Assembly (NCBI RefSeq): GCF_041821045.1
Contig: NZ_JBGUAW010000013.1
Coordinates: forward strand, 1 to 64,000
Length of the DNA: 64,000 nucleotides
Direction of reading: 5' to 3'
Source of the DNA: Thiohalorhabdus sp. Cl-TMA
GTDB lineage: Bacteria > Pseudomonadota > Gammaproteobacteria > Thiohalorhabdales > Thiohalorhabdaceae
Shown here piece by piece: positions 14,165 to 48,299 of this stretch; the stretch's first letter is position 1, and each line of letters starts with the position of its first letter. The notes beneath the pieces are model-generated. The model had not been told where the DNA came from. It did no database searches and was given only the letters and a program-made list of their open reading frames with translations. Both the position numbers and the translations under genes were made by a program.

Positions 14165-14423
14165 ATTTCCAGCCGAGGCGTAACCGGACCGCCCACCTCC
14201 CCTCACACCGATTCGTTCTTCACGCAGGTCTCCTTCCCCTGCCGAAACCCGGCGAGCGGCCAGGGAACGGGCAGGATCAGCCCGACGGTCTTGAGGTCCC
14301 GGAACGGGCCGGAGCAGGACGTTCCCACGCCGACATCTCAGGAGCGGCTCCGACAGACCGCCAAGGAACGGGACAAGGGGGTTGGAGGCGGGGTGTTGCG
14401 GCAGAATGTGTTTTTTTTGAAAA

Positions 14424-14438
14424 TAATAATCCTTATCA
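14424..14438. promoter_or_regulatory. Fur box upstream of the TonB-dependent receptor
   Basis: TAATAATCCTTATCA matches 13 of 15 positions of the 7-1-7 Fur operator TGATAATNATTATCA, and it sits inside an AT-rich promoter-like patch (14410-14460). It is 76 bp before the receptor start, so iron-replete Fur would be expected to block transcription. Confidence 0.7.
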
Positions 14439-14513: not shown

Positions 14514-16685
14514 ATGCCGGACAAATCGACGCCGCTGGGTCGAAAGGTCTGCACTCCGACCCGGCCGATTCAAGGACCGGCCAAGCTCGCCCTCGGCTCC
14601 GCCCTCGCGGCGCTGGCGGTTCCGGGCGTCGTCCATGCGCAATCCGGAATGGACGGCGAAGAGCTGGAGCCGATCACCGTCTCCACCACCCGCACAAGCC
14701 AGGGGCGGCCCCTTTCCGCCATTCCGGGCTCGGTGACGGTGATCGGTGAGGAGCAGATCGAGGAGCAGACCCGGTTCACGCAGGACATGGGGGAGATCCT
14801 GTCCAACCTAGTGCCCGGACTGGGTCAATCCTCGGAGAACCTGACCAACTTATCGCAGCACGTCCGGGGCCGCGACTTCCTGGTGATGATCGACGGCGTG
14901 CCGCAAAATGCCACCCTGCGTCCGACCTCCAAATTCCTGCGCTCCATTGCGCCGGAAGCCGTTGCAAAGGTGGAAGTGATCCGGGGCGCGGTAGCCACGT
15001 ACGGCTTCGGCGCCACCGGCGGCATCATCAACTTCATCACCAAAAGCGGCGAGGGCGTGGAAGGTACCGCCTTCCAGAGCACGGTGGGCGTTACCGGACA
15101 GACCGACGACAGCGACAGCCTCGGAAGCCGGGTCTACCAGGGCGTTCGGGGCGGAAGCGGCGCCTTCGATTACAGCGTCAACCTCAGCGCCAAGGAGACC
15201 GGTACCTGGTACGACGGCGAAGGCGATGTGGTGCCCCCGGATGGGTTCTCCCAGGGTGGCGGACTCTCCGATTCCGTGGAGTACAACGCCCAGACCAAGC
15301 TCGGCTACCAGATCGGCCCCGACCAGCGTATCCGCTTCACCGCGAACTACTACGAACGGACCCAGGACGCCGACCACACGGCCGACCGATCCACGGGGGA
15401 CACCCAGACCGACACCAAGACCGTCGCTGTGAAGGGGGATCCTGAAGGGAAAGATCCAGGCACGGAAAATCTGAACGTCAGCCTGGACTACACCCACGCC
15501 GACTTCCTGGGCGGGACGCTGTCGTCGCAGCTCTACTATCAGGATTACGAGACGTTTTTCTCCTATTTCAGTGGCTACGATACGGGCGGAGGACAATCCA
15601 AGCTGTTGACAGAGCATACCGGCTTCCGTCTGGCCCACGACCGGCCCATCGGCTTCCTCAACGCCGTCTACGGCATCGACCTGGGCCAGGAGAAGACTTC
15701 CCAGCCCCTTATCGACGGCCGTACCAACGTCCCCGAAATGGAGCAGGTCAGCTATTCGCCGTTCCTCCAGTTGGAGGCCCCGTTGGGCCGGGACTGGCTG
15801 GTGCGCGGCGGCGTCCGCTATGAAAATTTCCAGGTGGATGTACCCACCTTCCAGCGGGAAACGGTCAACAATCCCGGCACCATCGAAGGCGGGACCCTCG
15901 ATTACAGTGAAACGGTATTCAACCTCGGAGCCGTGCATTACCTGACCCGCAGCCAGGAGCTATTCGCCAGCTTCAGCCAGGGCTACTCCGTGGCCGACAT
16001 CGGACGGGTCCTGCGGACGAAGAGCGCGGACGGCGAGGACACCTCCGCCGAGGCCCTCGACCCCGAAGCGCAAATCGTGAACAACTACGAGCTCGGTTGG
16101 CGGGGTCGTTTCGACCATTGGCGCGCCACCGCGACCGCCTTCGTCAGCACCTCCGACCTGGGCACCACCTTTGAAGGCGCCGACCTTGAGCTGGAACGCA
16201 AAAAAGAGCGTATCTACGGCGTGGAGCTGACCGGCGACGTCCAGGCCACCCGGGCGCTGCGGCTCGGCGGCACGGCCACTTGGCAGGAAGGCCGCACGGA
16301 GGACGGTAGCAGCAACGACAGCGACCTGGACGCCTACCTCTCGGGCATCCGGATCTCCCCGCCCGAGCTTACCGCCTACGCCGAGTACGCGCCCTCCGAG
16401 CGCTGGTCCGCTCGCCTGCAGGCCAAGCACCTGTTCGACCGGGACCGTTTCGATGGATCGGAGTGGGCTTATGGGGAAGGAGAATTCAACGGGTTCACCC
16501 TCCTTCATGCCAGCGGGCAGGCCCAGGTGGGACCCGGCAGATTGAGCCTGGGAATCCGCAACCTGCTGGACAAGCAGTACATCACTCCGCTGGGACAGGT
16601 ATATAACCTCGATATGCCGGGTCGAACCGCGGTGATCGCCGGACGAGGCCGCTCCTACTCCCTGGAATACACCATGACCTACTGA
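14514..16685 (+). CDS. TonB-dependent outer-membrane receptor (siderophore/iron type)
   Basis: A 723-residue receptor. After an extended N-terminus comes a signal peptide ending GVVHAQ, then a TonB-box-like EPITVSTTRTSQG. The plug domain has IPGSVTVIGEEQIEEQ, HVRGRDFLVMIDGVPQ, and VEVIRGAVATYGFGATGGII (about residues 65-180). A 22-strand barrel follows and ends in the aromatic-terminated SLEYTMTY needed for outer-membrane assembly. The MPGRT motif near the C-terminus is common in siderophore receptors. It diverges from exbB-exbD-tonB, which would energise it, and is followed by a PepSY protein of the kind involved in ferric-siderophore reduction. The ligand (siderophore, haem or other chelate) cannot be fixed from sequence. 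Confidence 0.95.
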   Translation: MPDKSTPLGRKVCTPTRPIQGPAKLALGSALAALAVPGVVHAQSGMDGEELEPITVSTTRTSQGRPLSAIPGSVTVIGEEQIEEQTRFTQDMGEILSNLVPGLGQSSENLTNLSQHVRGRDFLVMIDGVPQNATLRPTSKFLRSIAPEAVAKVEVIRGAVATYGFGATGGIINFITKSGEGVEGTAFQSTVGVTGQTDDSDSLGSRVYQGVRGGSGAFDYSVNLSAKETGTWYDGEGDVVPPDGFSQGGGLSDSVEYNAQTKLGYQIGPDQRIRFTANYYERTQDADHTADRSTGDTQTDTKTVAVKGDPEGKDPGTENLNVSLDYTHADFLGGTLSSQLYYQDYETFFSYFSGYDTGGGQSKLLTEHTGFRLAHDRPIGFLNAVYGIDLGQEKTSQPLIDGRTNVPEMEQVSYSPFLQLEAPLGRDWLVRGGVRYENFQVDVPTFQRETVNNPGTIEGGTLDYSETVFNLGAVHYLTRSQELFASFSQGYSVADIGRVLRTKSADGEDTSAEALDPEAQIVNNYELGWRGRFDHWRATATAFVSTSDLGTTFEGADLELERKKERIYGVELTGDVQATRALRLGGTATWQEGRTEDGSSNDSDLDAYLSGIRISPPELTAYAEYAPSERWSARLQAKHLFDRDRFDGSEWAYGEGEFNGFTLLHASGQAQVGPGRLSLGIRNLLDKQYITPLGQVYNLDMPGRTAVIAGRGRSYSLEYTMTY

Positions 16686-18061: not shown

Positions 18062-18076
18062 TGAAAATAATTCTCA
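18062..18076. promoter_or_regulatory. Fur box upstream of the small-protein/DUF2325 pair
   Basis: TGAAAATAATTCTCA matches 13 of 15 positions of the Fur operator TGATAATNATTATCA and keeps its dyad symmetry. It lies 20 bp before the start of the 95-residue gene, where binding would block initiation. Confidence 0.7.
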
Positions 18077-18096
18077 TTCAGTTACGGGAGGGATCC

Positions 18097-18384
18097 ATGC
18101 CGCCTGCTACCACCGCATTGCGGCAAAGCCTAGCCCCCGGAACGGACACGCTGGAGAACAGCCTGCGGTTTCTCGTGGCCCGCTATGCCCGTAGCCCGGA
18201 TACGGAGGTAGCGCGCGCCGTGATCAACCAGCTCACCCTGCTCCTGCGTCAGCCCCGGGTCCTGGAGCAGCCCGACTACCGCACCTACCTCCGTCGTCAG
18301 CTGGCCCACTGGACCGGCCTGATCGGTACGGAGCTGACCACGGTACCCGGAACCGCCCACTGGACGCTCCGGAATCCGCAATAA
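18097..18384 (+). CDS. Small hypothetical protein in iron cluster
   Basis: A 95-residue soluble, helical protein (ENSLRFLVARYARSPDTEVA, then RAVINQLTLLLRQP), with a C-terminal Trp-containing segment. The ATG at 18097 has an excellent SD (GGGAGGG) and lies just after a Fur box. It precedes the DUF2325 gene by 12 bp, so the two are co-transcribed. The family was not recognised. Context points to an iron-starvation-induced accessory protein, perhaps a partner of the DUF2325 protein. Confidence 0.75.
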   Translation: MPPATTALRQSLAPGTDTLENSLRFLVARYARSPDTEVARAVINQLTLLLRQPRVLEQPDYRTYLRRQLAHWTGLIGTELTTVPGTAHWTLRNPQ

Positions 18385-18396
18385 GGAGGGAGGCCC

Positions 18397-19692
18397 ATGC
18401 AAAGCAAGGACCCCGTTTCCATTCTTATGGGCCGCGGCTCGGCACCGGTACCGCCCTCCACCCGGACCAAGGAACCGGCCGCCAGGGCATCCAACCAGAT
18501 CTCCGGAGAAGAGATGGTGTCTTTCCGCGCCCCCGACCAGCCCGCGGGCAAGGCCCGGCGCAAGCTGTGGAACCTGCCGCACCGTTTCCATTGCGCCCTG
18601 ATCGGCACCTGCCTGGACGTCGAGGACCTGCGCTCGTTGGCCAGCCGCTTCTGGATGGAGGACCTGCGGGACGAAACCGACTACACGGTGCATACCCGCT
18701 TCGTGACCCTGGCCGGCGAGAAGAGTCCGGTCAGCCAGCGCCTCCAGGGACTCATGGACCGGAAGTTCCGGGGCGCCTTGCGCCGCTTCAACGCGCTCCA
18801 GGACGAAAACAGCCTCCGCGAGCAATGGAACGAGGAGTGGCAGGAGGGCCGCATCGCCGGTGCCTTCTGGGCCCTCGCCACGCATCCCGCCACCACCCGG
18901 AAACTGGCCGACGAGATATACGGCGAGGTCCACATGCTGAGTCACCAGGTGGGCGCGGGAAACCGGGCCGACCGTCGCCGGCTCGCGGAGCTGGAGGATT
19001 CCTGCGAGCGCCTAACCGAGCGCCTGCAGGGAGCCATGAGCCAGGCCAACCGCCACCACCGGGAAAAGCAGGAAGCCCTGGAGGAGGTGCAGAGCTGGCG
19101 TGAACGGGCCCGGAATGCCGAAGGCCGGGTGGAATCCCTGGAGGAACGCCTTCGGGCCTGGGAGGAGGGCACGGAAGTCCGCAAGCTCCACCAGAAGATC
19201 CAGCGCCTGGAGCGCCAGCTCCACCACCAGGCGGGCAAGGCGGAACGAGCCGAGCGGCTGCTGGCGGAGCGCTCGGAACCGGAGCCGCGCTCGAAGGCGG
19301 ATACGGGGACTTGCGCGGCGGCGCACGGAGAGACGGGCGGTCCCTGCGCGGCCCGGGAATGGACCGACCTGGAGGGGCGCTGCGTGCTTTGCGTGGGCGG
19401 CCGCAGCGGTCTCGCCCACCGCTATCGCCAGCTGGTGGAGCGCTACAACGGCAGCTTCCTGCACCACGACGGCGGCCTGGAGGACAGCAGTCAGCGGCTC
19501 CAACAGCTCCTAAACCGCGCCGACCAGGTGGTCTGTCCCCTGGATTGCGTGAGCCATGAGGCCACCAGCCGCATCAAGGACCATTGCAAGCAGCAGGGCG
19601 TCCCCTGCCTGCTTCTGGAAAGCTCCGGAATAACCGCATTCGCCCGAGCGCTGCCCAGGCTCGCCGACCACGCCAGCCAGCCCGGGAAATGA
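18397..19692 (+). CDS. DUF2325 domain protein with coiled coil
   Basis: A 431-residue cytoplasmic protein. The N-terminal half includes LWNLPHRFHCALIGTCLDVE followed by an all-helical region. The middle (about residues 195-310) is a long coiled coil rich in Arg/Glu (ERLTERLQGAMSQ, EKIQ-like repeats). The C-terminal DUF2325 domain runs from CVLCVGGRSGLAHRYRQLVE through FLHHDGGLEDS to CPLDCVSHEATSRIKDHC. DUF2325 proteins have Rossmann-like folds of unknown biochemical function and several conserved Cys/His residues that could bind metal or haem. It sits between a Fur-controlled small gene (12 bp upstream) and bacterioferritin (162 bp downstream), so an iron or haem link is likely. Confidence 0.88.
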   Translation: MQSKDPVSILMGRGSAPVPPSTRTKEPAARASNQISGEEMVSFRAPDQPAGKARRKLWNLPHRFHCALIGTCLDVEDLRSLASRFWMEDLRDETDYTVHTRFVTLAGEKSPVSQRLQGLMDRKFRGALRRFNALQDENSLREQWNEEWQEGRIAGAFWALATHPATTRKLADEIYGEVHMLSHQVGAGNRADRRRLAELEDSCERLTERLQGAMSQANRHHREKQEALEEVQSWRERARNAEGRVESLEERLRAWEEGTEVRKLHQKIQRLERQLHHQAGKAERAERLLAERSEPEPRSKADTGTCAAAHGETGGPCAAREWTDLEGRCVLCVGGRSGLAHRYRQLVERYNGSFLHHDGGLEDSSQRLQQLLNRADQVVCPLDCVSHEATSRIKDHCKQQGVPCLLLESSGITAFARALPRLADHASQPGK

Positions 19693-27986: not shown

Positions 27987-29237
27987 TCAGTTCAGGGCAT
28001 CCCGGACCGACTGCGTCCAGGCAACCGCCTCGAGATAGGATTCCGCGAGGCGGTCCTGGGTAAGCCCGGTACGGGCAGTATCTCGCCATTCGCCCCGCTC
28101 GTAGGTCATGACGTCCGCCAGAACCCGGCCGACCGGTCCCTCGTGCCGCAGCAAGGCGGCCTCCACCTCGGCCGAAAGCGGCAGCTCGGCCACCACTTCG
28201 GCCATGGGGCGGTCGAAGAGGGCATCCAGGATCGAGACCAGACCCGTGGTGAAATGAATATCGGTTTTCGAGGCCCGCAGCTGTCCGGCCACGTTTTCGG
28301 CCATTCGGGCACGGATGAGACCGGTCATGGCGAGCTCCGAGGGTTTGCCGGGAACGCTGCCCATGGTCAGCCAGGCAGCCCAGGTACGTACCGGCTCGCG
28401 ACCCAGATACACCAACGCCCGATGGACGGAATCGATACGCGAGCGGATGGGAAAGAATGCCGAGTTGATGAGACGCAGCAATCGGTAGGTCAGGTCCACG
28501 TCCTGGGAGATGAGGGTGGCGAGATCCTCGAGGTCGTTTTGCGGATCCTGCAGCTTACCGAGCAACCGGAGCGCGCTGAGGCGCCTAGACGACAGAGCGG
28601 ATCCACTAACCCCCTGGGGCCGAGCGTAGAAATACCCCTGGAACCATTCGAATCCCAGCTCACGGCAGAGCATGTGCTCCTCGGGCGTTTCCACCTTTTC
28701 CGCCAGAAGCCCGACGGGGTGCCGCTGCAATTCCCGGACGCATTCCGTAAGCTCCGCCCGGTCATAGCTCTGGATATCGACTTTGACCATGTCGGCGTAC
28801 CCCAACAGAGCCTGGTGCGGCCCGTTGAGCACGAAATCGTCCAGAGCCAGGGTGTAGCCGCTCTCCTTGAGCGCCCTCAAGGCATCCATAACCGCGGAAT
28901 CGGGATCCACATCCTCGAGGACCTCCAGAACGAAACGGCCGGGATCCAATGCCGCGCCCTGGAAGGCGAGGAGAAAGGATCGGGGCAGGTTGATGAAGGC
29001 GCGGTATCCCTCTACGAGCGCCTCCAGCCGGCCGTTGGTGAGCAGCTCCAGAAGCACCGAGGAAGTGGCCCGCTCGGCCCATCCCCCATTCCCCTCAGCA
29101 TCGGGCTCGCCGCCCCGGTAGAGCAGCTCGTATCCGACCACCGCATCGGATCGATCGAACACCGGCTGACGGGCCACCAACAACGGCGGGGCTTCGGTTT
29201 CATGAAGCGGTGCACCGTCCCCTTCAGGATGCGCCAT
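27987..29237 (-). CDS. EAL/HDOD domain signalling protein (YuxH-like)
   Basis: A 416-residue protein with an N-terminal degenerate EAL domain and a C-terminal HDOD domain. The EAL motif region reads VVGYELLYRGG in place of ExLxR, typical of the YuxH group. LALDDFVLNG, ADMVKVDIQSYD and LAEKVETPEEH are recognisable. Catalytic cyclic-di-GMP hydrolysis is doubtful because key residues differ. HDOD follows from about residue 215: QNDLEDLATLISQDVDLTYR, LLRLINSAFF, and TTGLVSILDALFDRPMAEV. Such proteins scaffold signalling and cell-cycle or motility control. It lies 59 bp after a PAS-GGDEF gene on the same strand, making a probable cyclic-di-GMP operon. Confidence 0.92.
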   Translation of the reverse strand: MAHPEGDGAPLHETEAPPLLVARQPVFDRSDAVVGYELLYRGGEPDAEGNGGWAERATSSVLLELLTNGRLEALVEGYRAFINLPRSFLLAFQGAALDPGRFVLEVLEDVDPDSAVMDALRALKESGYTLALDDFVLNGPHQALLGYADMVKVDIQSYDRAELTECVRELQRHPVGLLAEKVETPEEHMLCRELGFEWFQGYFYARPQGVSGSALSSRRLSALRLLGKLQDPQNDLEDLATLISQDVDLTYRLLRLINSAFFPIRSRIDSVHRALVYLGREPVRTWAAWLTMGSVPGKPSELAMTGLIRARMAENVAGQLRASKTDIHFTTGLVSILDALFDRPMAEVVAELPLSAEVEAALLRHEGPVGRVLADVMTYERGEWRDTARTGLTQDRLAESYLEAVAWTQSVRDALN

Positions 29238-37204: not shown

Positions 37205-38344
37205 CTACTGGGCCCGCGCCCGGCTCGCCGCTGCCAGCTCCCCGCCATGATTCGGTGCTTCGGCATGGGCCACACCCGCTGTCTCTTGGCCCTTGGACGA
37301 GCTCGCCGCCCGCGGCGGCTCCGGTCTTGCCGTCCCATGGTCTTCCGCAGCGGGGAAGAGCGCCAGCGGGTGACCGGCGGTGATGGCGACCCGGACGGGG
37401 TCCCCGGGCTCGAAGCGGGCTTCGTGGTTGGTGCGGATCTTCACCCGGGGGCCGCTCCGCAGGTCCACGCCGAACAGCCGGGTGCCGCCCTCGTAGCGGG
37501 CCCAGGCCACCACGCCGTTACCGTCCTCCGCCGCCTCCAGGCCCAGATCGTCGGGCCGCGCCAGCGCCTCGACGGCCCCTTCCCCGCCGTTTCCGGGCAC
37601 CTGACCGAGCGCAGTGGCTACGAGGCCCTTACCGGCCTGGCCGGGCAGGAACGAGGCCTCGCCCAGGAACTCGGCCACGAAGCGCGTGGCGGGCGCCCGG
37701 AAGCACTCCTCGGGCAGGTCGAGCTGCTCCAGCTCGCCGTCCCGCATGATCCCCACCCGGTCGCCGATGGACAAAGCCTCGGCCTGGTCGTGGGTCACCC
37801 AGACGGCCGGGACCCCGGCCTCCTTGAGGGCGCTCCGGATCTCCCAGCGCAGGCTGTCCTTGAGGGAGGCGTCGAGGTTGGAAAGCGGCTCGTCGAGGAG
37901 GACGAGCTCCGGCTGGTGCGCCAGACAGCGCGCCAGGGCCACCCGCTGCTTCTGGCCGCCGGAGAGGTTCTCCGGGTAGGCGTCCCGGTGCGCGGCCAGA
38001 CCGAGCCATTCCAGCCAATGCTCCACCGGGTCGGAGCGCTTGAGCCGGAACCCCACGTTCTGGGCCACGGTCAGGTGGGGGAACAGGGCGAAATCCTGGA
38101 ACACCAGGCCGGTATTGCGCTGCTCCGGGGGCGTGAAGACCCCACCGCTCACCTCCCGACCGTTGATGCGCACCGTCCCCCCGCTCGGGTCCTCTAGGCC
38201 GGCCACCACGCGCAGGGTGGTGGTCTTGCCGCAGCCCGTGGGGCCCAGGAGGGTGACGATCTCTCCCGGGGCGGCGGTGAGGCTCAGGTTCCGGACCGCC
38301 ACCGCGTCGCCGTAGGACACGTTGAGGTTGTGGATCTCCAGCAT
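37205..38344 (-). CDS. fbpC: Iron(III)-type ABC transporter ATP-binding protein
   Basis: A 379-residue ABC ATPase. Walker A is LLGPTGCGKTTTLRVVAG, the Q-loop is NTGLVFQDFALFPH, the signature is NLSGGQKQRVALARCLAHQP, Walker B is LVLLDEPLSNLDASLKDSLR, and the switch His is in VPAVWVTHDQAEAL. A C-terminal regulatory domain (about residues 240-350) follows. It couples ATP hydrolysis to the adjacent two-domain permease and periplasmic binding protein (14 bp between genes). This subclass (FbpC/PotA-like) normally serves iron(III), thiamine or polyamines; the neighbourhood favours iron. It is the last gene of the operon and has a Ser/Glu-rich tail beyond residue 350. Confidence 0.9.
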   Translation of the reverse strand: MLEIHNLNVSYGDAVAVRNLSLTAAPGEIVTLLGPTGCGKTTTLRVVAGLEDPSGGTVRINGREVSGGVFTPPEQRNTGLVFQDFALFPHLTVAQNVGFRLKRSDPVEHWLEWLGLAAHRDAYPENLSGGQKQRVALARCLAHQPELVLLDEPLSNLDASLKDSLRWEIRSALKEAGVPAVWVTHDQAEALSIGDRVGIMRDGELEQLDLPEECFRAPATRFVAEFLGEASFLPGQAGKGLVATALGQVPGNGGEGAVEALARPDDLGLEAAEDGNGVVAWARYEGGTRLFGVDLRSGPRVKIRTNHEARFEPGDPVRVAITAGHPLALFPAAEDHGTARPEPPRAASSSKGQETAGVAHAEAPNHGGELAAASRARAQ

Positions 38345-38358
38345 GCGAGTTTCCTTGT

Positions 38359-39861
38359 TCAGAGAAGGCCGGGCTGCCGCTTTTCACCCCGGAGCATCAC
38401 CACCACGGCGGCTCCGGAGACGAGCACCAGCAGCAGGGCGGGCACCGCGCCGCGGCCGAAGTAGCCGGCCTCGTAGACCTGCCACAGGTGGGTGGCGAGG
38501 GTTTCGAAGCCGGTGGGCCGCAGCAGTAGCGTGGCGGGCAGCTCGCGCATGGCCTCCAGGAAGACCAGGGCGCCGGCGGCCAGCAGGCCCGGCAGGATCA
38601 GCGGCAGGGTGACGCGTCGGAAGGCCTCCCCCGGAGAAGCGCCCAGGAGCCGGGCGGCCCCCACCAAGCGGTTCTCCGAGCGCTCCAGGGGGGCCCGGAT
38701 ATTGCCCACCGCCAGGGGCAGAAACCGCACCACGTAGGCGAAAACCAGCAAGGCCAGGGACTGGTAGAGGAAGTCCACATACAGCCCCACCACCACCAGG
38801 GCCGTGCCCAGGACGATCCCGGGAACGCCAAATCCCAGATAGGCCGCCCGCTCCAGCATCCGGCCCAGCCGCCCGGTGGTGGCGGCATAGGCCACCGGCA
38901 GGGCCGCCGCCACCGCCGCCAGGGCCGCCAGCAGGGAGGCCGATGCCGAGTTGAACAGGATGCCGGGCTCGAAATCGCCCATGCCCTCCCGGGCCAGCCA
39001 CAGGCCGAATACGCCCACCGGCATGCCGATGGCCGCCGCCAGCACCACCACCACACCGGTCAAGGAGGCCGCCTTGCCGCCCCGCCCGAGGCGGAGCAGC
39101 GGCGGCCGGCCGGGCGCCTCGCGCACCGCGCCCACCCGTGATTCCAGGAACAGCACCACCGCCACCAGCGCCAGCAGGGCGATGGACAGCAGGGCCGCCC
39201 GATCGAGCCCGAAGGCGTTGTACTCCACGTAGATCACCCGGGTGAAGGTGTCCACCCGCATGATGGCCGGCGTGCCGAAATCCGACAGGGTATACAGCGC
39301 CACCAGCAGCGCCCCCGCCGCCACGCTGTTCTTCACCCTGGGCAGCACCACCCGCAGCAGGGCCTCACGCAGCGGCATTCCCAGCGTCCGCGCCGCCTCC
39401 AGCGTGCTGGCGTCCAGATTGCGGAGGGCCGCCCGGGTGGCCAGCAGCACGAACGGAAAGGTATAGAGGGTCATGACCAGGGTGGCCCCGGCCAGGCCGT
39501 CCATGTTGGGCCAGGGCAGGCCCGTCAGCTCACTCAGCTCCCCGCCGCGGCCGAAGGCCGCGAAAAAGGCGAAGGCGCCCAGGTAGCTGGGAATGGCCAG
39601 CGGAGCGGCCAGCAGCCCGGTCCAGACACCGCGCCCTGGGAGGTCGGTATACGCCGTGAGGAAGGCCAGGGGCACGCCGAGCAGGACGGCGCCGATCACG
39701 GTGAGGCCGGTGAGCAGGAAGGAGTTAACGGCCACCTCCACCAGGCGGCCGCCCAGGGCCACGTCGGCGCCCACGCCCATGCCCAGCAGCACCGCCACCG
39801 GGGTCAGGGCGGCCGCCGCTACCAGGGCACTCAGCCCGATGATGATCGGTGCTCGCCTCAC
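38359..39861 (-). CDS. fbpB: Iron(III)-type ABC transporter permease (two-domain)
   Basis: A 500-residue integral membrane protein with about twelve helices in two homologous halves of the FbpB type. Each half has an EAA-like coupling loop: the first is NLDASTLEAARTLGMPLREA (followed by LLRVVLPRVKNSV), the second is RSENRLVGAARLLGASPGEA (followed by FRRVTLPLILPG). Helices include PLAIPSYLGAFAFFAAFGRG and VPGIVLGTALVVVGLYVDFL. It forms the channel for substrate delivered by the upstream binding protein; its start overlaps that gene by 4 bp (ATGA), and the ATPase gene follows 14 bp later. Confidence 0.92.
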   Translation of the reverse strand: MRRAPIIIGLSALVAAAALTPVAVLLGMGVGADVALGGRLVEVAVNSFLLTGLTVIGAVLLGVPLAFLTAYTDLPGRGVWTGLLAAPLAIPSYLGAFAFFAAFGRGGELSELTGLPWPNMDGLAGATLVMTLYTFPFVLLATRAALRNLDASTLEAARTLGMPLREALLRVVLPRVKNSVAAGALLVALYTLSDFGTPAIMRVDTFTRVIYVEYNAFGLDRAALLSIALLALVAVVLFLESRVGAVREAPGRPPLLRLGRGGKAASLTGVVVVLAAAIGMPVGVFGLWLAREGMGDFEPGILFNSASASLLAALAAVAAALPVAYAATTGRLGRMLERAAYLGFGVPGIVLGTALVVVGLYVDFLYQSLALLVFAYVVRFLPLAVGNIRAPLERSENRLVGAARLLGASPGEAFRRVTLPLILPGLLAAGALVFLEAMRELPATLLLRPTGFETLATHLWQVYEAGYFGRGAVPALLLVLVSGAAVVVMLRGEKRQPGLL

Positions 39862-40904
39862 AGCACCCCCGCCCGGCGCATGAGCTCCAACGTGGGCTGC
39901 AGATTCCCCAGCCGGGTGAGATCCAGCTGCGGCGGATTGATGCGCTCCAGGGCAGGTACGCCTTCCGGCGTGGGCACGCCTGGCACCAACGGGATCTCAT
40001 AGCCCTCCCGGGCCAGGTAGGACTGCACCTCGCGGGACTGCAAGTAGCGCACGAAATTCACCGCTGTCTGTCCGGGGCTCAGCAAGGCGACCCCGGAGGT
40101 GTTGATCAGGCTGCCCGCGTCCCCGCGGGTATAGGCCAGGGCGAGGTTCATGTCCGGCTTACCGGCCTTGAGTCGCAGGGTGTAGTAATGGTTGGCGAGG
40201 CTCAGGTCCACCTCCCCTTGCGCTGCCGCCATGACCGCGCCCAGCTCCCCGGCGTACTCCCGGGCCTTGGGCTTCATGGCCCGCAGCCATTCCAGCGTGG
40301 CCTGGTCGCCCTCCAGGATCCGCATGGCGGTCACGAAGGACTGGAACGCACCGTAGGCCGGTGCCCACCCCACCCGGAAGTTCCGCTCGGGGAGGGCCAT
40401 GATGTCCTCGGGAATGTCCGCAGGAGTCAGGCGCTCGGTGTTGTAGGCCACGGTCCGGACCCGCCCCGTCACCGGGGCCAGGGACTCGAACCGGAACGGC
40501 TTCATCACCCGGTTGCGGAGGTCGGACGGGATCTCCCGGGCCAGGCCCTGGTCGATCACCCGCCCTAGCGAGCTGGCGTCGATGGACCAGAACAGGTCCG
40601 CCCGGGCCCCGCCGCGCTTGCCCTCCTCCACCAGGGTATTGGCCAGGGCCGAGGACGGCCCCCGCCGCACCTCGAGGTTGAGGTCGGGATTTCGCTTGCG
40701 GATGGCCTCGACGACGTCGGAATAGAGCCCCCCCTCGCCGCGGCCCAGATAGACGGTCAGGTCACCGGCCAGCTCGGGCAGCTTCTCCACGGAAAGAGCC
40801 GGCGGCGCATCCGCCCCGCCCTCGCCGGAACAGCCCGTGAGGATGCCCGAGGTGCCGAGCACGCCGAGGGCCGATGCGCCTTGCAGGAAGGCTCGACGGT
40901 CCAT
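39858..40904 (-). CDS. fbpA: Iron(III)-type ABC transporter substrate-binding protein
   Basis: A 348-residue periplasmic binding protein. The N-terminus MDRRAFLQGASALGVLG resembles a Tat signal, and GILTGCSG is a lipobox, so it is probably a lipidated protein. The fold belongs to the ferric-binding group: LTVYLGRGEGGLYSDVVEAI near the start, VRTVAYNTERLTPADIPEDI and LANHYYTLRLKAGKP, with a tyrosine pair where FbpA binds iron. It ends with MRRAGVL. It is immediately downstream of the FTR1-like periplasmic gene (1 bp) and overlaps the permease gene by 4 bp. Tyr-based coordination makes iron(III) the most likely cargo. Confidence 0.9.
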   Translation of the reverse strand: MDRRAFLQGASALGVLGTSGILTGCSGEGGADAPPALSVEKLPELAGDLTVYLGRGEGGLYSDVVEAIRKRNPDLNLEVRRGPSSALANTLVEEGKRGGARADLFWSIDASSLGRVIDQGLAREIPSDLRNRVMKPFRFESLAPVTGRVRTVAYNTERLTPADIPEDIMALPERNFRVGWAPAYGAFQSFVTAMRILEGDQATLEWLRAMKPKAREYAGELGAVMAAAQGEVDLSLANHYYTLRLKAGKPDMNLALAYTRGDAGSLINTSGVALLSPGQTAVNFVRYLQSREVQSYLAREGYEIPLVPGVPTPEGVPALERINPPQLDLTRLGNLQPTLELMRRAGVL

Positions 40905-40905
40905 G

Positions 40906-41721
40906 CTAGAAAACCTCGCTGTCGCCCTGATCGGCCTGCTTCAGGATTTCCTCGGACTTCATGAGGGCCTGCTTCATCGACTCCACCTTGCTCCGCACCC
41001 GGTCCACGGGCGCGCCTTCGTTGATCAAGCCCGGCAGCTCGGCATTGAAGGCCTCCTCGAGCTGGACGACGAGCTCCGGATCCTGCTCGATCAATCCGCC
41101 CTCGAGCCCTTCGAACTCATTGAAGTAGGCGTCGCGGATCAGGGCCTTGGCCTCCCGCTTGTTGCCCTCGGCATAGTCCGACACCGCGTGGTCCAGGTGC
41201 TCCCGGATGCGGTCAAAGGAGGCTGCCGGACCATGGGCCTCGGACTCCTCGCGGCCGTGGTCCGAGTGCATGTCCGTCCCGTCCTTAAGGTTGGCCCGCA
41301 GCTTGATGCCGCCCAGTCCCTGGTTGAGGGCAGCCGTCACCCGCGCCGCCTGCTTGCGCACCGCCTCGGGGCCCTCGTCTTTCTTGACGGCCTGGCGGAG
41401 ACCGCTAATGGCCTGCCAGATGGGCGGATACAGGGGGGTCGCCACCTCTTCGACCGCCGCATGATACTTCACGGATTTCCAGGCATCCACAAAGCCCTCG
41501 ACCTTATCGGAGACGTCCTGCCCCTCGGCGTAGGTCGCGGCAAGCGCTTCCAGCTGCCCGGTCAGCTTGCGGACCCCCGCTTCGTAATCGTCAATATGCT
41601 CCCGGAACTCCTCGACGTGCTCGCCCTTTTCTCCGTGGCCGAAGGCCAGGGAGGGCACCAGCAGGGCGCCTGTCAGCAGGGCGCCCACCAGTAACGGAAA
41701 ACCACCGGTCTTTTTCGTCAT
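40906..41721 (-). CDS. Periplasmic helical protein resembling the FTR1 N-terminal domain
   Basis: A 271-residue secreted helical protein. The signal peptide is GALLTGALLVPSLAFG, after which the mature part starts HGEKGEHVEEF. The C-terminal half carries AYFNEFEGLEGGLIEQDPEL and LEEAFNAELPGLI, similar to the periplasmic segment of FTR1-type high-affinity iron permeases, but no permease helices follow. It also has a His/Glu-rich patch (DMHSDHGREESEAHG) that could bind metal. The ATG at 41721 has GAGG 7 nt upstream. It is the first gene before fbpABC (1 bp from fbpA), so it may capture or oxidise iron for the ABC system. Imelysin-like ancestry is another possibility. Confidence 0.75.
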   Translation of the reverse strand: MTKKTGGFPLLVGALLTGALLVPSLAFGHGEKGEHVEEFREHIDDYEAGVRKLTGQLEALAATYAEGQDVSDKVEGFVDAWKSVKYHAAVEEVATPLYPPIWQAISGLRQAVKKDEGPEAVRKQAARVTAALNQGLGGIKLRANLKDGTDMHSDHGREESEAHGPAASFDRIREHLDHAVSDYAEGNKREAKALIRDAYFNEFEGLEGGLIEQDPELVVQLEEAFNAELPGLINEGAPVDRVRSKVESMKQALMKSEEILKQADQGDSEVF

Positions 41722-41760
41722 GCCTGAACCTCGTGGAATGCAGCGGTACATTTTCGGAAA

Positions 41761-41775
41761 CAAAACTCATTTTCA
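41761..41775. promoter_or_regulatory. Weak Fur-box-like site before the iron ABC operon
   Basis: On the minus strand TGAAAATGAGTTTTG matches 10 of 15 positions of TGATAATNATTATCA and lies 39 bp before the first gene of the operon in an AT-rich patch. Suggestive because the operon is an iron importer, but weak by sequence alone. Confidence 0.3.
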
Positions 41776-41904: not shown

Positions 41905-43245
41905 TCAACTCCTTGGAGTAGGCCTACTCAGAGGACCAAAGTCCCGGAGGTACGCATGAAAATCATCGATAGCCAAGCGGCCCAAACCCACCTGTTCCGC
42001 CTCTTGGAAGAGGTACAAAAGGGCGATTCCTTTATCATCGCCAAGGCGGGGAGGCCCGTCGCCCGGGTAACCAGCGTGGAGGCGCCGCAGCCCGTCCAGA
42101 CCGGACGGCTCGGCTTCATGGCCGGACAGATAGCCGTACCGGAGGATTTCGACCGCATGGGAGAAGAAAAGATGCGCTCCCTGTTCCGAGCAGGCGCCGA
42201 CTCCTGAACCCCAAGGTAGCGAGGTATTCCGTTCCGGTCCGGATGATCTGAGCATTGAGCCCGGGGGTAGGCGTAGGCCCCGGGCGCTAGCAGCGCCCCA
42301 CGAACAGCAGCCCGCCCGCTTGGCGCGGGCCTTCACCTTAGAGACGCAGGCCGCCACTTCCTCCTGGCTGCGGAAACGCCCGGGTGGAACCGGGATGGCG
42401 CCGATGGAGAGCCCCACTCCCGAAGCACCCCCCTGCCTTCCCCAAGGCCCGGAACGCTCGGAAGCCCCGTGTACTGCGTCCGGCTCCCGACGGGACCAGC
42501 GGCAGACCTCCCGTTGGAACCGCCGCCGGATCCGCTCGCAGACCGCCCGCCGGGCCCCGCCGGTCAGGACCAGGAGGAAGTCGTCTCCGCCGATGTGCCC
42601 CACGAAGTCCCGGTACGGATTCGTCTCCGCGGTCAGAAGCCGGCTCAGCCAACGTATGAGCGCATCGCCGCACCCGAAGCCGTAGGCGTCGTTGAAGGAC
42701 TTGAAGCCGTCCAGATCCGCGTAGGCCACGGCAAACTCCCGGCCCGCGGCGAGCAAGCGCTCTATCTCCTCCGCGATGGGAACGTTGCCCGGCAGCCCGG
42801 TTAGCGGGCTGGCGTGGCGGGCGCGGTGGAGCTGGCGGTCCGTGAGCCGGCCCAGGAGGTCCACCAGGGTGACAATGCCCAGATAGCTTCCCTCCTCCCG
42901 GGTGACGATGACGGCATCCGACCGGTCCGCCGGCCCGGTCCCATCGGCAACCAGCCGGCCCAGCGTCTCCACCGGAATCTCCCGGGAAACGATGCGGGGC
43001 TCGGGATCCATGGCGCCGCGGACGGGCGCGGAATGCCGGGCCTCGCAGATCCGGGCCACCCGGTCCATGAGCGACTGGCGCTGGAGCAGACCCACGGGCC
43101 GTGCGTTATCGACCACCGCCACGCTCCCCAGTCCCGTGTCCCCGAGGAATAGCTCGATGGCCTCTTCCATGGAGGTATCGACGGCCAGCCCGGGACGCTC
43201 CCGAACAAGTCCGCTCACCGTTTCAGCCATGGCGTGACTCGTCAT
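41905..43245 (-). CDS. CBS-pair / GGDEF protein, 3' end probably frameshifted
   Basis: A 446-residue frame as it stands. Two CBS domains (about residues 10-65 and 75-130) precede a GGDEF domain (about 140-320): ASPLTGLPGNVPIAEEIERL, VAYADLDGFKSFNDAYGFGC, active-site HIGGDDFLLVL. GGDDF departs from GG(D/E)EF, so cyclase activity is uncertain. The last 115 or so residues (after KVKARAKRAG, about 42315) have no domain character and run antisense to the Phd gene. One extra G in the GGGCGGGC run there would give GLLFVGRC and a stop at 42287-42289, the likely ancestral end. AAGGAGG precedes the ATG in the 14-bp gap from the EAL gene, forming an operon. Confidence 0.8.
   Translation of the reverse strand: MTSHAMAETVSGLVRERPGLAVDTSMEEAIELFLGDTGLGSVAVVDNARPVGLLQRQSLMDRVARICEARHSAPVRGAMDPEPRIVSREIPVETLGRLVADGTGPADRSDAVIVTREEGSYLGIVTLVDLLGRLTDRQLHRARHASPLTGLPGNVPIAEEIERLLAAGREFAVAYADLDGFKSFNDAYGFGCGDALIRWLSRLLTAETNPYRDFVGHIGGDDFLLVLTGGARRAVCERIRRRFQREVCRWSRREPDAVHGASERSGPWGRQGGASGVGLSIGAIPVPPGRFRSQEEVAACVSKVKARAKRAGCCSWGAASARGLRLPPGSMLRSSGPERNTSLPWGSGVGACSEQGAHLFFSHAVEILRYGYLSGHEAEPSGLDGLRRLHAGYPGDGPPRLGDDKGIALLYLFQEAEQVGLGRLAIDDFHAYLRDFGPLSRPTPRS
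41956..42207 (+). CDS. Phd/YefM-type antitoxin without visible toxin
   Basis: An 83-residue antitoxin of the prevent-host-death group: N-terminal MKIIDSQAAQTHLFRLLEEV, then GDSFIIAKAGRPVARVTSV, the Phd DNA-binding fold, and a C-terminal toxin-binding tail with FMAGQIAVPEDFDRMGEE. This tail is typical of antitoxins followed by a VapC/PIN toxin, but downstream (42208-42280) only a short non-coding stretch and a hairpin are found. The SD GGAGG precedes the ATG at 41956. It lies wholly antisense to the readthrough extension of the GGDEF frame. It is an orphan, possibly a solitary regulator or remnant of a lost pair. Confidence 0.85.
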   Translation: MKIIDSQAAQTHLFRLLEEVQKGDSFIIAKAGRPVARVTSVEAPQPVQTGRLGFMAGQIAVPEDFDRMGEEKMRSLFRAGADS

Positions 43246-43259
43246 CTCCAGCTCCCTCC

Positions 43260-44036
43260 TTACGTCGCGTACCGCGCCGAGCGCCGGCCGGTATGGGGCA
43301 CCACCTCCCGGAAGCGATCCCGGAACAGGAAGCCCTGCGCATAGTCGATGCCCAGGTGGCGGGCCCGCTCCAGATCCGCGACGGTTTCCACCCCTTCCAG
43401 CACCGTGCGCTTACCCGTCTCCCGGGCGAACTCCAGGAGCTTGCGCAGGAGGGTGTCGAATTCCGGCTGGCGCCTGCGCAGCCAGGTACGGTCGAGCTTG
43501 AGGTAGTCCACCCCCACCAGCACCGGGAAGGCGAGCATGGCGTGGTCGGCGCCGATGTCGTCCAGGGCCAGCTCCGCCCCGTGGGTGCGGAGGATCTCCG
43601 CCATGGCCAGGCTGGCCCGGGCGTCGCTGAGCTTGGCGTTCTCGATGATCTCCACCACCAGCCCGGCGCGGCCCACCAGCTGCGCCAGCACGGGATGGCT
43701 CGCATCGGGCTGGCCCGCGGCGAGCAAGGCGTCGGGATCCAGGTTCACGAAGAGCTTGGCGCCCGGCGGCGCATGGGCCACCTGCAGGGCCTTTACCGCT
43801 GTCTCCACCTGGAGCAGGAGCAGGGGATTGTCATGGAGGGCCCGGAAGACCCCGTTGGGCGGGAGGTCGGCACCCTCGCGGCTGCGGAACCGGGCCAGGG
43901 CCTCGAATCCGTGGACTTCGCCGCTGCCGACCGCTACCAGCGGCTGGTACACGACGCCGAAGGAGCGGTGCTCCACCACCTGGAGCAGGGTGGCCGGATC
44001 CAGCTCCGGCGGATCGGTCTCGGCATGCTCTTCCAT
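43260..44036 (-). CDS. EAL domain cyclic-di-GMP phosphodiesterase
   Basis: A single-domain EAL protein of 258 residues. Catalytic elements are kept: GFEALARF (EAL), LFVNLDPDALL (metal Asn), VEIIEN, LALDDIGADHAM (loop 6 aspartates), VDYLKLDRTWL, TVLEGVETVADL (general base/metal Glu) and YAQGFLFRDRF. It should hydrolyse cyclic-di-GMP. The CBS-GGDEF gene follows 14 bp later with its own SD; the pair corresponds to the single-chain EAL-CBS-GGDEF proteins found in other gammaproteobacteria. A perfect Fur box lies 28 bp before the start codon, so expression should rise when iron is scarce. Confidence 0.93.
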   Translation of the reverse strand: MEEHAETDPPELDPATLLQVVEHRSFGVVYQPLVAVGSGEVHGFEALARFRSREGADLPPNGVFRALHDNPLLLLQVETAVKALQVAHAPPGAKLFVNLDPDALLAAGQPDASHPVLAQLVGRAGLVVEIIENAKLSDARASLAMAEILRTHGAELALDDIGADHAMLAFPVLVGVDYLKLDRTWLRRRQPEFDTLLRKLLEFARETGKRTVLEGVETVADLERARHLGIDYAQGFLFRDRFREVVPHTGRRSARYAT

Positions 44037-44063
44037 GGGGGTCTCGCGCTTAATTTTTTGAAA

Positions 44064-44078
44064 TGATAATCATTATCA
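44064..44078. promoter_or_regulatory. Perfect Fur box upstream of the EAL/GGDEF operon
   Basis: TGATAATCATTATCA is identical to the 15-bp palindromic Fur operator. It is flanked by near-symmetric A/T arms (TAATTTT on the left, AAAATTA on the right). It lies 28 bp upstream of the EAL gene. The next gene on the other strand (LysR) begins 258 bp away, so the EAL operon is the main target. Confidence 0.85.
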
Positions 44079-44335
44079 TAAAATTAAGCAAGCCGCCCCC
44101 CCCTCTCCTGACCATATCCCACGTGTCTAGCTGGAGGTGGCCGAAGGTGTCTCAGATGGCAAAAACTTCTGGATAGAGCCTTCCAGTCTGTCTGCGTTTG
44201 GTAGCTCATGTGCTCTTTCCTTCCTGTTGGGTGCGGGCTGGTCCGTCCGGCGAGGGCCATCGACCAGCCGGTAGCGGTTCGCGATGCTATGATTCGGCTG
44301 GTAATATCAATCCAATATCAATTCCGGACTTCGTG

Positions 44336-45262
44336 ATGCAGTGGAAGTATCTATCCCGGGTGCAGCTGGGCGAGCTGGAGGCCGCGGCGGCCGTGGCACG
44401 GACATTGAGCTTCCGGGCCGCGGCGGAGGCGCTCCGCATCGCGCAGCCCTCCGTGTCCCGGAAGGTCGCGCACCTGGAGGACACGCTGGGCTGCCGCCTG
44501 TTCGAGCGCGACCGGGTTTCGGTGCAGCTCACCCCCGCCGGCCGGATGCTGACGGACCGGCTGCCGGAGCTGTTCCAGGCACTCGAGCAATGCCTGAGCG
44601 AATCCGCCGACGCAGGCCACGGCATCACCGGCACGGTGCGCATCGGCTTCTCGGAGGCGGCCATGTCCAGCTTCCTGCCGCCGCTGCTCCGGGCGGTAAA
44701 ACGCGCCTGCACCGGCTGCAGCCTGGAGCTCACCGAGGCCGCCTCCAACGAGGTCGCCGAGGGGGTACGTACCCGGCGCTTCGATGCGGGGTTCGCATTG
44801 GCCCGGCCCCGGGACCCGGAGCTGGACGTGACGCCCCTGCCTTCCGAGCCGGTGGGCGTGGTGCTTCCGGACGACCACCCCCTGGCGGAGAGAAGCGTTC
44901 TCGGACTGGCCGACCTCCGCGATGAGGCGTTCATCCTGTTCCCACGCCCCGTGAACCCGCATCTGTATGACCGCATGATCGTGTGCTGCGCCGAATTCGG
45001 CTTCAGCCCCAGGGTGGCCCTGGAGGTCACGCCGCGCAGCAAGGCCATCGCCATGGCCGCCGCCGGCGAGGGCATCGCCACCATTCCCGAGCGCCTCCGC
45101 CACCAGTGCCTGCCCGGAACGGTCTACCGGCGCCTGGCCCCGCCGGCGCCGGAGATCGAGTTCAGCATGCTGGTGCGCACCGAGACCCGGGCCGAATGGC
45201 TGGAGGTGATGCACCGGCATGTGGCGGCCCTGTGGGCGGATTCGGCGGATGGGGCGCAATAA
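44336..45262 (+). CDS. LysR family transcriptional regulator
   Basis: A LysR regulator of 308 residues. The helix-turn-helix is at residues about 10-65 (LGELEAAAAVARTLSFRAAA, then SVSRKVAHLEDTLGCRLFER). The substrate-binding domain starts at GTVRIGFSEAAMSSFLPPLL, with the second half containing PRVALEVTPRSKAIAMAAAG and GEGIATIPERL. The ATG at 44336 begins the conserved N-terminus; upstream sequence to 44198 is open but unlike a LysR protein. AATATCAAT is repeated 12 bp apart at 44301-44321, within 40 bp of the start. This is a candidate self-binding site. Neither neighbour is an obvious metabolic target, so the effector is unknown. Confidence 0.93.
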   Translation: MQWKYLSRVQLGELEAAAAVARTLSFRAAAEALRIAQPSVSRKVAHLEDTLGCRLFERDRVSVQLTPAGRMLTDRLPELFQALEQCLSESADAGHGITGTVRIGFSEAAMSSFLPPLLRAVKRACTGCSLELTEAASNEVAEGVRTRRFDAGFALARPRDPELDVTPLPSEPVGVVLPDDHPLAERSVLGLADLRDEAFILFPRPVNPHLYDRMIVCCAEFGFSPRVALEVTPRSKAIAMAAAGEGIATIPERLRHQCLPGTVYRRLAPPAPEIEFSMLVRTETRAEWLEVMHRHVAALWADSADGAQ

Positions 45263-47796: not shown

Positions 47797-48039
47797 ATGC
47801 CCACCCTGACGGCCAGTGAAGCCCGCTCCCAGCTTTACCGCCTGATCGACCAAGTCGCCGAATCCCATGAACCGACATTGATCAGCGGCAAGCGGAATAA
47901 TGCCGTGATCCTGTCCGAAGATGACTGGCGTACCATTCAGGAGACGCTGCACCTGCTCGCCATACCGGGGATGCGGGAATCGATTCACGAGGGTATGGAA
48001 ACGCCGATCGAGGAATGTGATCAGGGTCCCGGGTGGTGA
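47797..48039 (+). CDS. yefM: YefM-type antitoxin
   Basis: An 80-residue antitoxin of the Phd/YefM family: MPTLTASEARSQLYRLIDQV, then ISGKRNNAVILSEDDWRTIQ, then a helix IPGMRESIHEGMETPIEECD that wraps the toxin. The pattern matches E. coli YefM closely. Start ATG follows CAGGAG. It overlaps the YoeB gene by 7 bp, ensuring antitoxin-first translation. A short palindromic patch (GTACG...CGTAC near 47748) lies upstream and could be the autoregulatory operator. Confidence 0.95.
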   Translation: MPTLTASEARSQLYRLIDQVAESHEPTLISGKRNNAVILSEDDWRTIQETLHLLAIPGMRESIHEGMETPIEECDQGPGW

Positions 48040-48299
48040 CTTGGCGCCTCGTTTACACCAAACAGGCGCAAAAAGATGCCAAGAAGCTCGCGAGCACCAA
48101 CCTGAAGCCCAAGGCCCAGGAACTACTGGATCTCCTGGCTGATGACCCCTGGACCTCCCCGCCCCCTTACGAAAAGCTCGTTGGGGACCTGGAAGGTGCC
48201 TCTTCCCGCCGAATCAATATCCAGCATCAGCTCGTCTACCAGACCCTCGAGGAGGAGAAGACGGTAAAGATCCTGCGGATGTGGACCCACTACGAATAG
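48033..48299 (+). CDS. yoeB: YoeB-type mRNA interferase toxin
   Basis: An 88-residue toxin of the Txe/YoeB family that cleaves mRNA in the ribosomal A site. Visible family features are WRLVYTKQAQKDAKKLASTN, DPWTSPPPYEKLVGDLEGAS, SRRINIQHQLVYQ, and the catalytic C-terminus RMWTHYE with the His-Tyr pair. The GTG start at 48033 overlaps yefM by 7 bp (a second GTG follows immediately). The gene appears intact and full length, so the pair is probably functional. Confidence 0.95.
   Translation: MVTWRLVYTKQAQKDAKKLASTNLKPKAQELLDLLADDPWTSPPPYEKLVGDLEGASSRRINIQHQLVYQTLEEEKTVKILRMWTHYE

Follow-up and report, generated by a model that had tools for sequence, protein, structure and literature searches.

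Does the availability of iron directly govern a cyclic-di-GMP (c-di-GMP) enzyme in Thiohalorhabdus sp. Cl-TMA? The question is raised by an intergenic region within the 64,000-nucleotide stretch of DNA analyzed here (the window), in which a Fur-like palindrome lies immediately before a gene encoding a stand-alone EAL protein. The choice of bacteria between settling and leaving depends on iron as well as on c-di-GMP, and direct links between the two are few. A sequence-only reading of this region had proposed that Fur directly controls an operon formed by the EAL gene and the CBS-GGDEF gene behind it, and we analyzed the operator, the two genes, and their relatives with regard to this proposal.

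A Predicted Fur Operator in Front of the EAL Gene

The EAL gene (43260–44036, minus strand) encodes a predicted c-di-GMP phosphodiesterase of 258 amino acids, in which Pfam detects an EAL domain with 134 bits. The CBS-GGDEF gene (41905–43245, minus strand), for which Pfam returns CBS and GGDEF domains, follows 14 bases behind the EAL stop codon on the same strand, so that the proposed succession of the two genes was borne out. A motif scan of the window located the core 15-mer TGATAATCATTATCA at 44064–44078, separated by a gap of 27 bases from the EAL start codon (44036, minus strand), and the palindrome claimed to precede this gene is thus real. The operator agrees with the Fur box consensus at 14/14 core positions in the 7-1-7 palindromic arrangement and extends to a perfect odd palindrome of 17 bp, ATGATAATCATTATCAT, at 44063–44079 (no strand assigned; center 44071). 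The symmetric A/T flanks that had also been described were found in part, since the palindrome is perfect over these 17 bp while the flanks farther out match only partly.

The window harbors four matches to the Fur core with up to three mismatches, against 0.16 expected from a shuffle control, and TGATAATCATTATCA is the sole exact one among them. Throughout the 3.74-Mb genome it is also the only match at zero or one mismatch. Because the otherwise G+C-rich window contains a few A+T-rich intergenic stretches, an A+T-rich palindrome that arose by chance and has no function was considered as an explanation. This was ruled out by the rarity of the site, with approximately 0.0005 exact matches expected per genome (first-order, dinucleotide model) against the one observed, together with its conservation across the family described below, and we regard the probability left to it as negligible.

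A candidate sigma-70 promoter, TTGCTT-N17-TATCAT, was read from the sequence on the minus strand at approximately 44059–44091, where it overlaps the operator. It is weak, with 8/12 matches, and scores below the threshold of the consensus promoter scan, which at that threshold returned no promoter-like site. As the intergenic region is common to two divergent genes, the operator might instead serve the gene of a LysR-type regulator that starts near 44336 on the plus strand, its proximity to the EAL gene being incidental. We consider this highly improbable, given that the site stands 27 bases from the EAL start and about 250 from the LysR start, and that elsewhere it remains with the EAL gene despite changed neighbors.

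Fur Proteins and Other Fur-Like Sites

The genome encodes a clear Fur protein (PF01475, 154.7 bits), and the Fur-family proteins found in it number three. A matrix built from the sites of other species alone (consensus TTAATGATAATAATTATCATTAA) ranked the site at 44064 first in the window, followed by those at 18062 and 14424. The last of these belongs to a set of overlapping, weaker Fur-like sites (14418–14438, no strand assigned) upstream of the gene for a TonB-dependent siderophore receptor (14514–16685, plus strand), which serve as an internal positive control for the motif. That a matrix derived from other species places the operator first and the siderophore receptor sites behind it supports the proposed direct control of the EAL gene by Fur.

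The site ranked second, AATGAAAATAATTCTCATT at 18062, is weaker than the operator but still a strong Fur-like site, located about 330 bases before the gene of a DUF2325 protein (window 18062–19692). A still weaker site at 41761 lies ahead of a putative metal/solute ABC transporter cluster (37205–41763, minus strand) composed of an ATPase, a fused permease, and a substrate-binding protein; the periplasmic-looking protein ahead of this set had no match in Pfam or NCBIfam. The weak site suggests that the ABC set may have a role in iron uptake. With Fur-like sites before the receptor gene, at 18062, and before the ABC cluster, the DNA around the operator is iron-linked, which fits Fur. Additionally, the same motif precedes TonB-receptor and Bfd genes in three of the genomes that bear homologs of the EAL gene, and TonB receptors and Bfd are standard Fur targets.

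Certain Fur-related regulators recognize palindromes resembling this one, and the three Fur-family proteins of this genome allow that another member, of the Mur, Zur, or PerR type, binds the operator, in which case the signal would be manganese, zinc, or peroxide. Such a reading appears very unlikely, since the same matrix detects the siderophore-receptor site, the motif recurs in front of Bfd and TonB receptor genes in other genomes, and the Shewanella homolog responds to iron depletion, as addressed in a subsequent section.

A Sparsely Distributed Stand-Alone EAL Family

The EAL protein belongs to a family of stand-alone EAL proteins of about 240 amino acids (about 230–285), 38–50% identical and sparsely distributed, to which we refer as the Fur-box EAL family. 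In a maximum-likelihood tree, 23 family rows, the window among them, were separated from 22 other EAL domains with a branch support of 100/100, and a single origin of the family appears well supported by this topology. The window protein falls in the same 100/100-supported group as SO_2039 of Shewanella. Its nearest homologs (44–50% identity) are found outside its own genus, namely in Shewanellaceae, in a single-genus gammaproteobacterial family designated f188, in Magnetospirillum, in Chitinimonas, and in scattered others. Family members are present in 69 of the 146 sampled genomes of Shewanellaceae and in 28 of the 48 of f188; in the broader samples they occur in 2/369 genomes of the class and 9/398 of the phylum, with the window genome counted in both. 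Two genomes of the same genus (G001 and G002) yielded matches of only 32–33% and no family member, and the gene is therefore patchy in this lineage.

Pfam finds a single domain in the window protein and no sensory domain. Its predicted catalytic residues are E45, R49, N98, E129, D159, D160, K180, E214, E217, and Q234, and the metal-, substrate-, and general-base residues are invariant in 68/68 family members. Loop 6 reads DDIGADHAMLA versus the canonical DFG(T/A)GYSS and is thus non-canonical, as it is also altered in all family members displayed in the alignment. This loop is essential in canonical EALs for dimerization and for the binding of Mg2+ and substrate (PMC7290235). Because it is altered across the family, enzymatic activity cannot be assumed, and we regard the protein as likely, although not certainly, active as a phosphodiesterase. 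The changed loop would also suit an explanation in which the Fur operator is real but mainly serves something other than c-di-GMP turnover, the EAL protein being a weak enzyme, or an effector that binds c-di-GMP and acts by protein contact. This we judge unlikely: the binding residues are retained in 68/68 members, whereas degenerate EAL effectors usually lose such residues, and a published alignment of functionally characterized EAL phosphodiesterases includes SO2039 (PMC7290235).

A PdeH-type enzyme was ruled out by a score of 29.8 bits against the NCBIfam equivalog cut-off of 190. The genome of the window contains 25 EAL matches in all, and Pfam identifies another gene of the c-di-GMP type in the window, which encodes an EAL-HDOD protein (27987–29237, minus strand).

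The Operator Follows the EAL Gene

Conservation of the operator was assessed in 68 family loci, the window included, by scanning a stretch that reaches 1.4 kb upstream and 2.1 kb downstream of a fixed codon of the EAL gene, with a promoter window of 186 bp. The best Fur-like core of these approximately 3.5 kb fell in the EAL promoter window in 55 of the 68 loci, against 5% expected, a count that, like the following ones, overstates the independence of the observations because two genera account for many of the loci; by genus, at least six separate occurrences can be counted. A core of at least 10/14 was present in the promoter window of 57/68 loci, compared with 13% of the remaining bins of these loci and with 19% of the Markov shuffles of the same promoters. 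With the threshold raised to at least 12/14, the promoter window still contained a core in 19/68 loci versus 0.2% of bins. Among the other EAL genes that formed the comparison set, 10/14 was reached in 9/101. A good site was absent from the promoter window in three Chitinimonas members, in locus L118, and in a few f188 members.

The genes next to the EAL gene vary between the clades examined, and since the neighbors vary while the site stays, the Fur-like site follows the EAL gene. This conservation of the operator before homologs in several genera is further support for the view that Fur controls the EAL gene directly. In our assessment, the Fur operator and the stand-alone EAL gene probably comprise a cassette of old origin and sparse distribution, in which the operator is retained as the neighbors change.

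A different layout occurs in both Magnetospirillum loci, where the best site lies farther upstream, before a small co-directional ORF. Within the stretches 5071–7958 of L039 and 5060–8023 of L040, the order is a Fur-like site, an ORF of 76 amino acids, and the EAL homolog. The small ORF was considered as a truncated Fur, a candidate that was dropped as Pfam and BLAST gave no match. The Magnetospirillum EAL loci are also flanked by a divergent gene for a Dps-like ferritin and a downstream Fur-family gene, according to domain calls made on the genes of M. fulvum.

The CBS-GGDEF Gene Lies outside the Conserved Unit

In the neighborhoods compared, no CBS-GGDEF gene was found beside the other members of the EAL family, which rules out a conserved EAL/CBS-GGDEF operon. 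As the CBS-GGDEF gene is outside the conserved unit, the operon put forward in the sequence-only reading is local to the genome of the window, and its proposed control by Fur stands for the EAL gene and does not carry over to a conserved pair. The signature of the CBS-GGDEF gene is GGDDF, which departs from the GG(D/E)EF of an active diguanylate cyclase. This GGDEF partner could offset the effect of the EAL protein on c-di-GMP.

A fused EAL-CBS-GGDEF protein of 608 amino acids in locus L012, which we take to be PA3258-like, displays the domain order and the GGDDF signature of the two window genes, and its CBS-GGDEF part is 28.6% identical to the window CBS-GGDEF protein. It differs from the window arrangement in being one polypeptide, the EAL part of which is about 30% identical and falls outside the Fur-box family.

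The listed CBS-GGDEF ORF runs approximately 130 codons beyond the usual end of a GGDEF domain (window 41905–42340), and a neighboring frame closes with the more usual GGDEF ending ...LLFVGRC-stop near 42296. A frame change near 42300–42330, by sequencing error or mutation, is likely from these reading frames, and the listed ORF therefore probably overruns the true end of the gene. Antisense to this over-long ORF lies a Phd/YefM antitoxin gene (41956–42207, plus strand; Pfam 34.5 bits). Elsewhere in the window, two overlapping small ORFs at 47797–48299 (plus strand) resemble, by eye, a YefM-YoeB toxin–antitoxin pair.

Iron Response of the Shewanella Homolog

The Shewanella family member (G842/L156/L205) has HtpG, a 287-amino-acid protein, Adk, and HemH encoded upstream, as identified by eye. 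HtpG, an unknown protein, and HemH correspond to SO2016, SO2017, and SO2019 (PMC2667191), and on this agreement in gene order the member was taken to be SO_2039. It shares with the window protein the family (43% identity), the stand-alone architecture, and a Fur-like site, TGCGAATAATTAGCA, before the gene. Differences from the window concern the spelling of the operator and the surroundings, which consist of a lytic transglycosylase and mobile elements and include no CBS-GGDEF partner.

The sequence-only reading had called for transcriptome data in relatives, and the published record answers this in Shewanella, where SO_2039 is induced by iron depletion (PMC2667191). Besides the conserved operator and the ranking by the matrix from other species, this induction is the third independent line of support for Fur acting directly on the EAL gene. 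Listed as a "signalling protein with EAL domain", SO2039 was 3.09-, 3.89-, 3.39-, 4.86-, and 4.81-fold up at 1, 5, 10, 20, and 40 min, respectively, after iron was depleted by chelation (PMC2667191, Table 3, which lists no values for this gene under iron repletion), and it belongs to an iron acquisition module whose promoters have a common Fur-box motif (PMC2667191). Furthermore, SO_2039 was up by a log2 value of 2.13 in early surface growth, along with iron-uptake genes (PMC3409153). In both studies the gene occupies one table row with no follow-up (PMC2667191; PMC3409153).

Proposed Mechanism

Taken together, we find it quite likely that Fur-Fe(II) represses the EAL gene and that iron starvation releases it, whereupon the phosphodiesterase would lower c-di-GMP. 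With sufficient iron, a Fur-Fe(II) dimer or a pair of dimers would occupy 44063–44079, covering the likely −10 region and blocking EAL transcription. When iron is lacking, Fur would be released and a phosphodiesterase without a sensory domain would be made. As such a domain is missing, the signal must be conveyed through expression, by which alone the EAL activity would be set. The resulting decrease in c-di-GMP would favor motility or dispersal over attachment, and the presence of flagellin genes in the genome makes a motile state possible. We infer Fur binding in this organism, with repression as its sign, together with the hydrolysis of c-di-GMP, the effect on motility, and whatever the CBS-GGDEF protein may contribute. 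On balance, we lean toward a broader proposal in which this cassette represents a dedicated iron-starvation phosphodiesterase across Proteobacteria, gained and lost repeatedly with its operator kept, that would lower c-di-GMP with a non-canonical loop 6.

Comparison with Known Systems

Fur control of c-di-GMP enzymes is already known in principle from hmsT and from vieSAB/cdgD. In Yersinia pestis, Fur binds the promoter of hmsT, itself a gene for a c-di-GMP enzyme, and represses it directly, which ties iron to biofilm (PMC3528687). Since HmsT is a diguanylate cyclase, the loss of Fur repression raises c-di-GMP in this species, whereas the target in the window is a phosphodiesterase with a predicted effect in the reverse direction. 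In Vibrio cholerae, vieSAB and cdgD are under Fur (PMC7641913), and vieSAB is an EAL-encoding operon bound by Fur; it differs from the window in that Fur activates it, reportedly independently of iron, and in that the Fur sites are unusually placed (PMC7641913). In the published links found (hmsT; vieSAB/cdgD), Fur lowers c-di-GMP and lost Fur action raises it. VieA is, moreover, a response regulator, unlike the stand-alone EAL protein of the window. Escherichia coli PdeH (YhjH) is a stand-alone EAL enzyme controlled by expression, as proposed here for the window protein, and is under the flagellar cascade, not Fur.

Our literature search for Fur-regulated EAL genes returned none further beyond SO2039, vieSAB, and hmsT, and the cross-class conservation of the Fur–EAL unit appears undescribed in the literature searched. 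If a conserved Fur-repressed phosphodiesterase of this kind is true, iron starvation would deplete cells of c-di-GMP and could prompt them to leave, and the link would be carried in the laboratory strain Shewanella oneidensis MR-1 by SO_2039. What is new in relation to the known systems is a conserved Fur–EAL unit, predicted to act with a sign opposite to that of the Yersinia and Vibrio cases.
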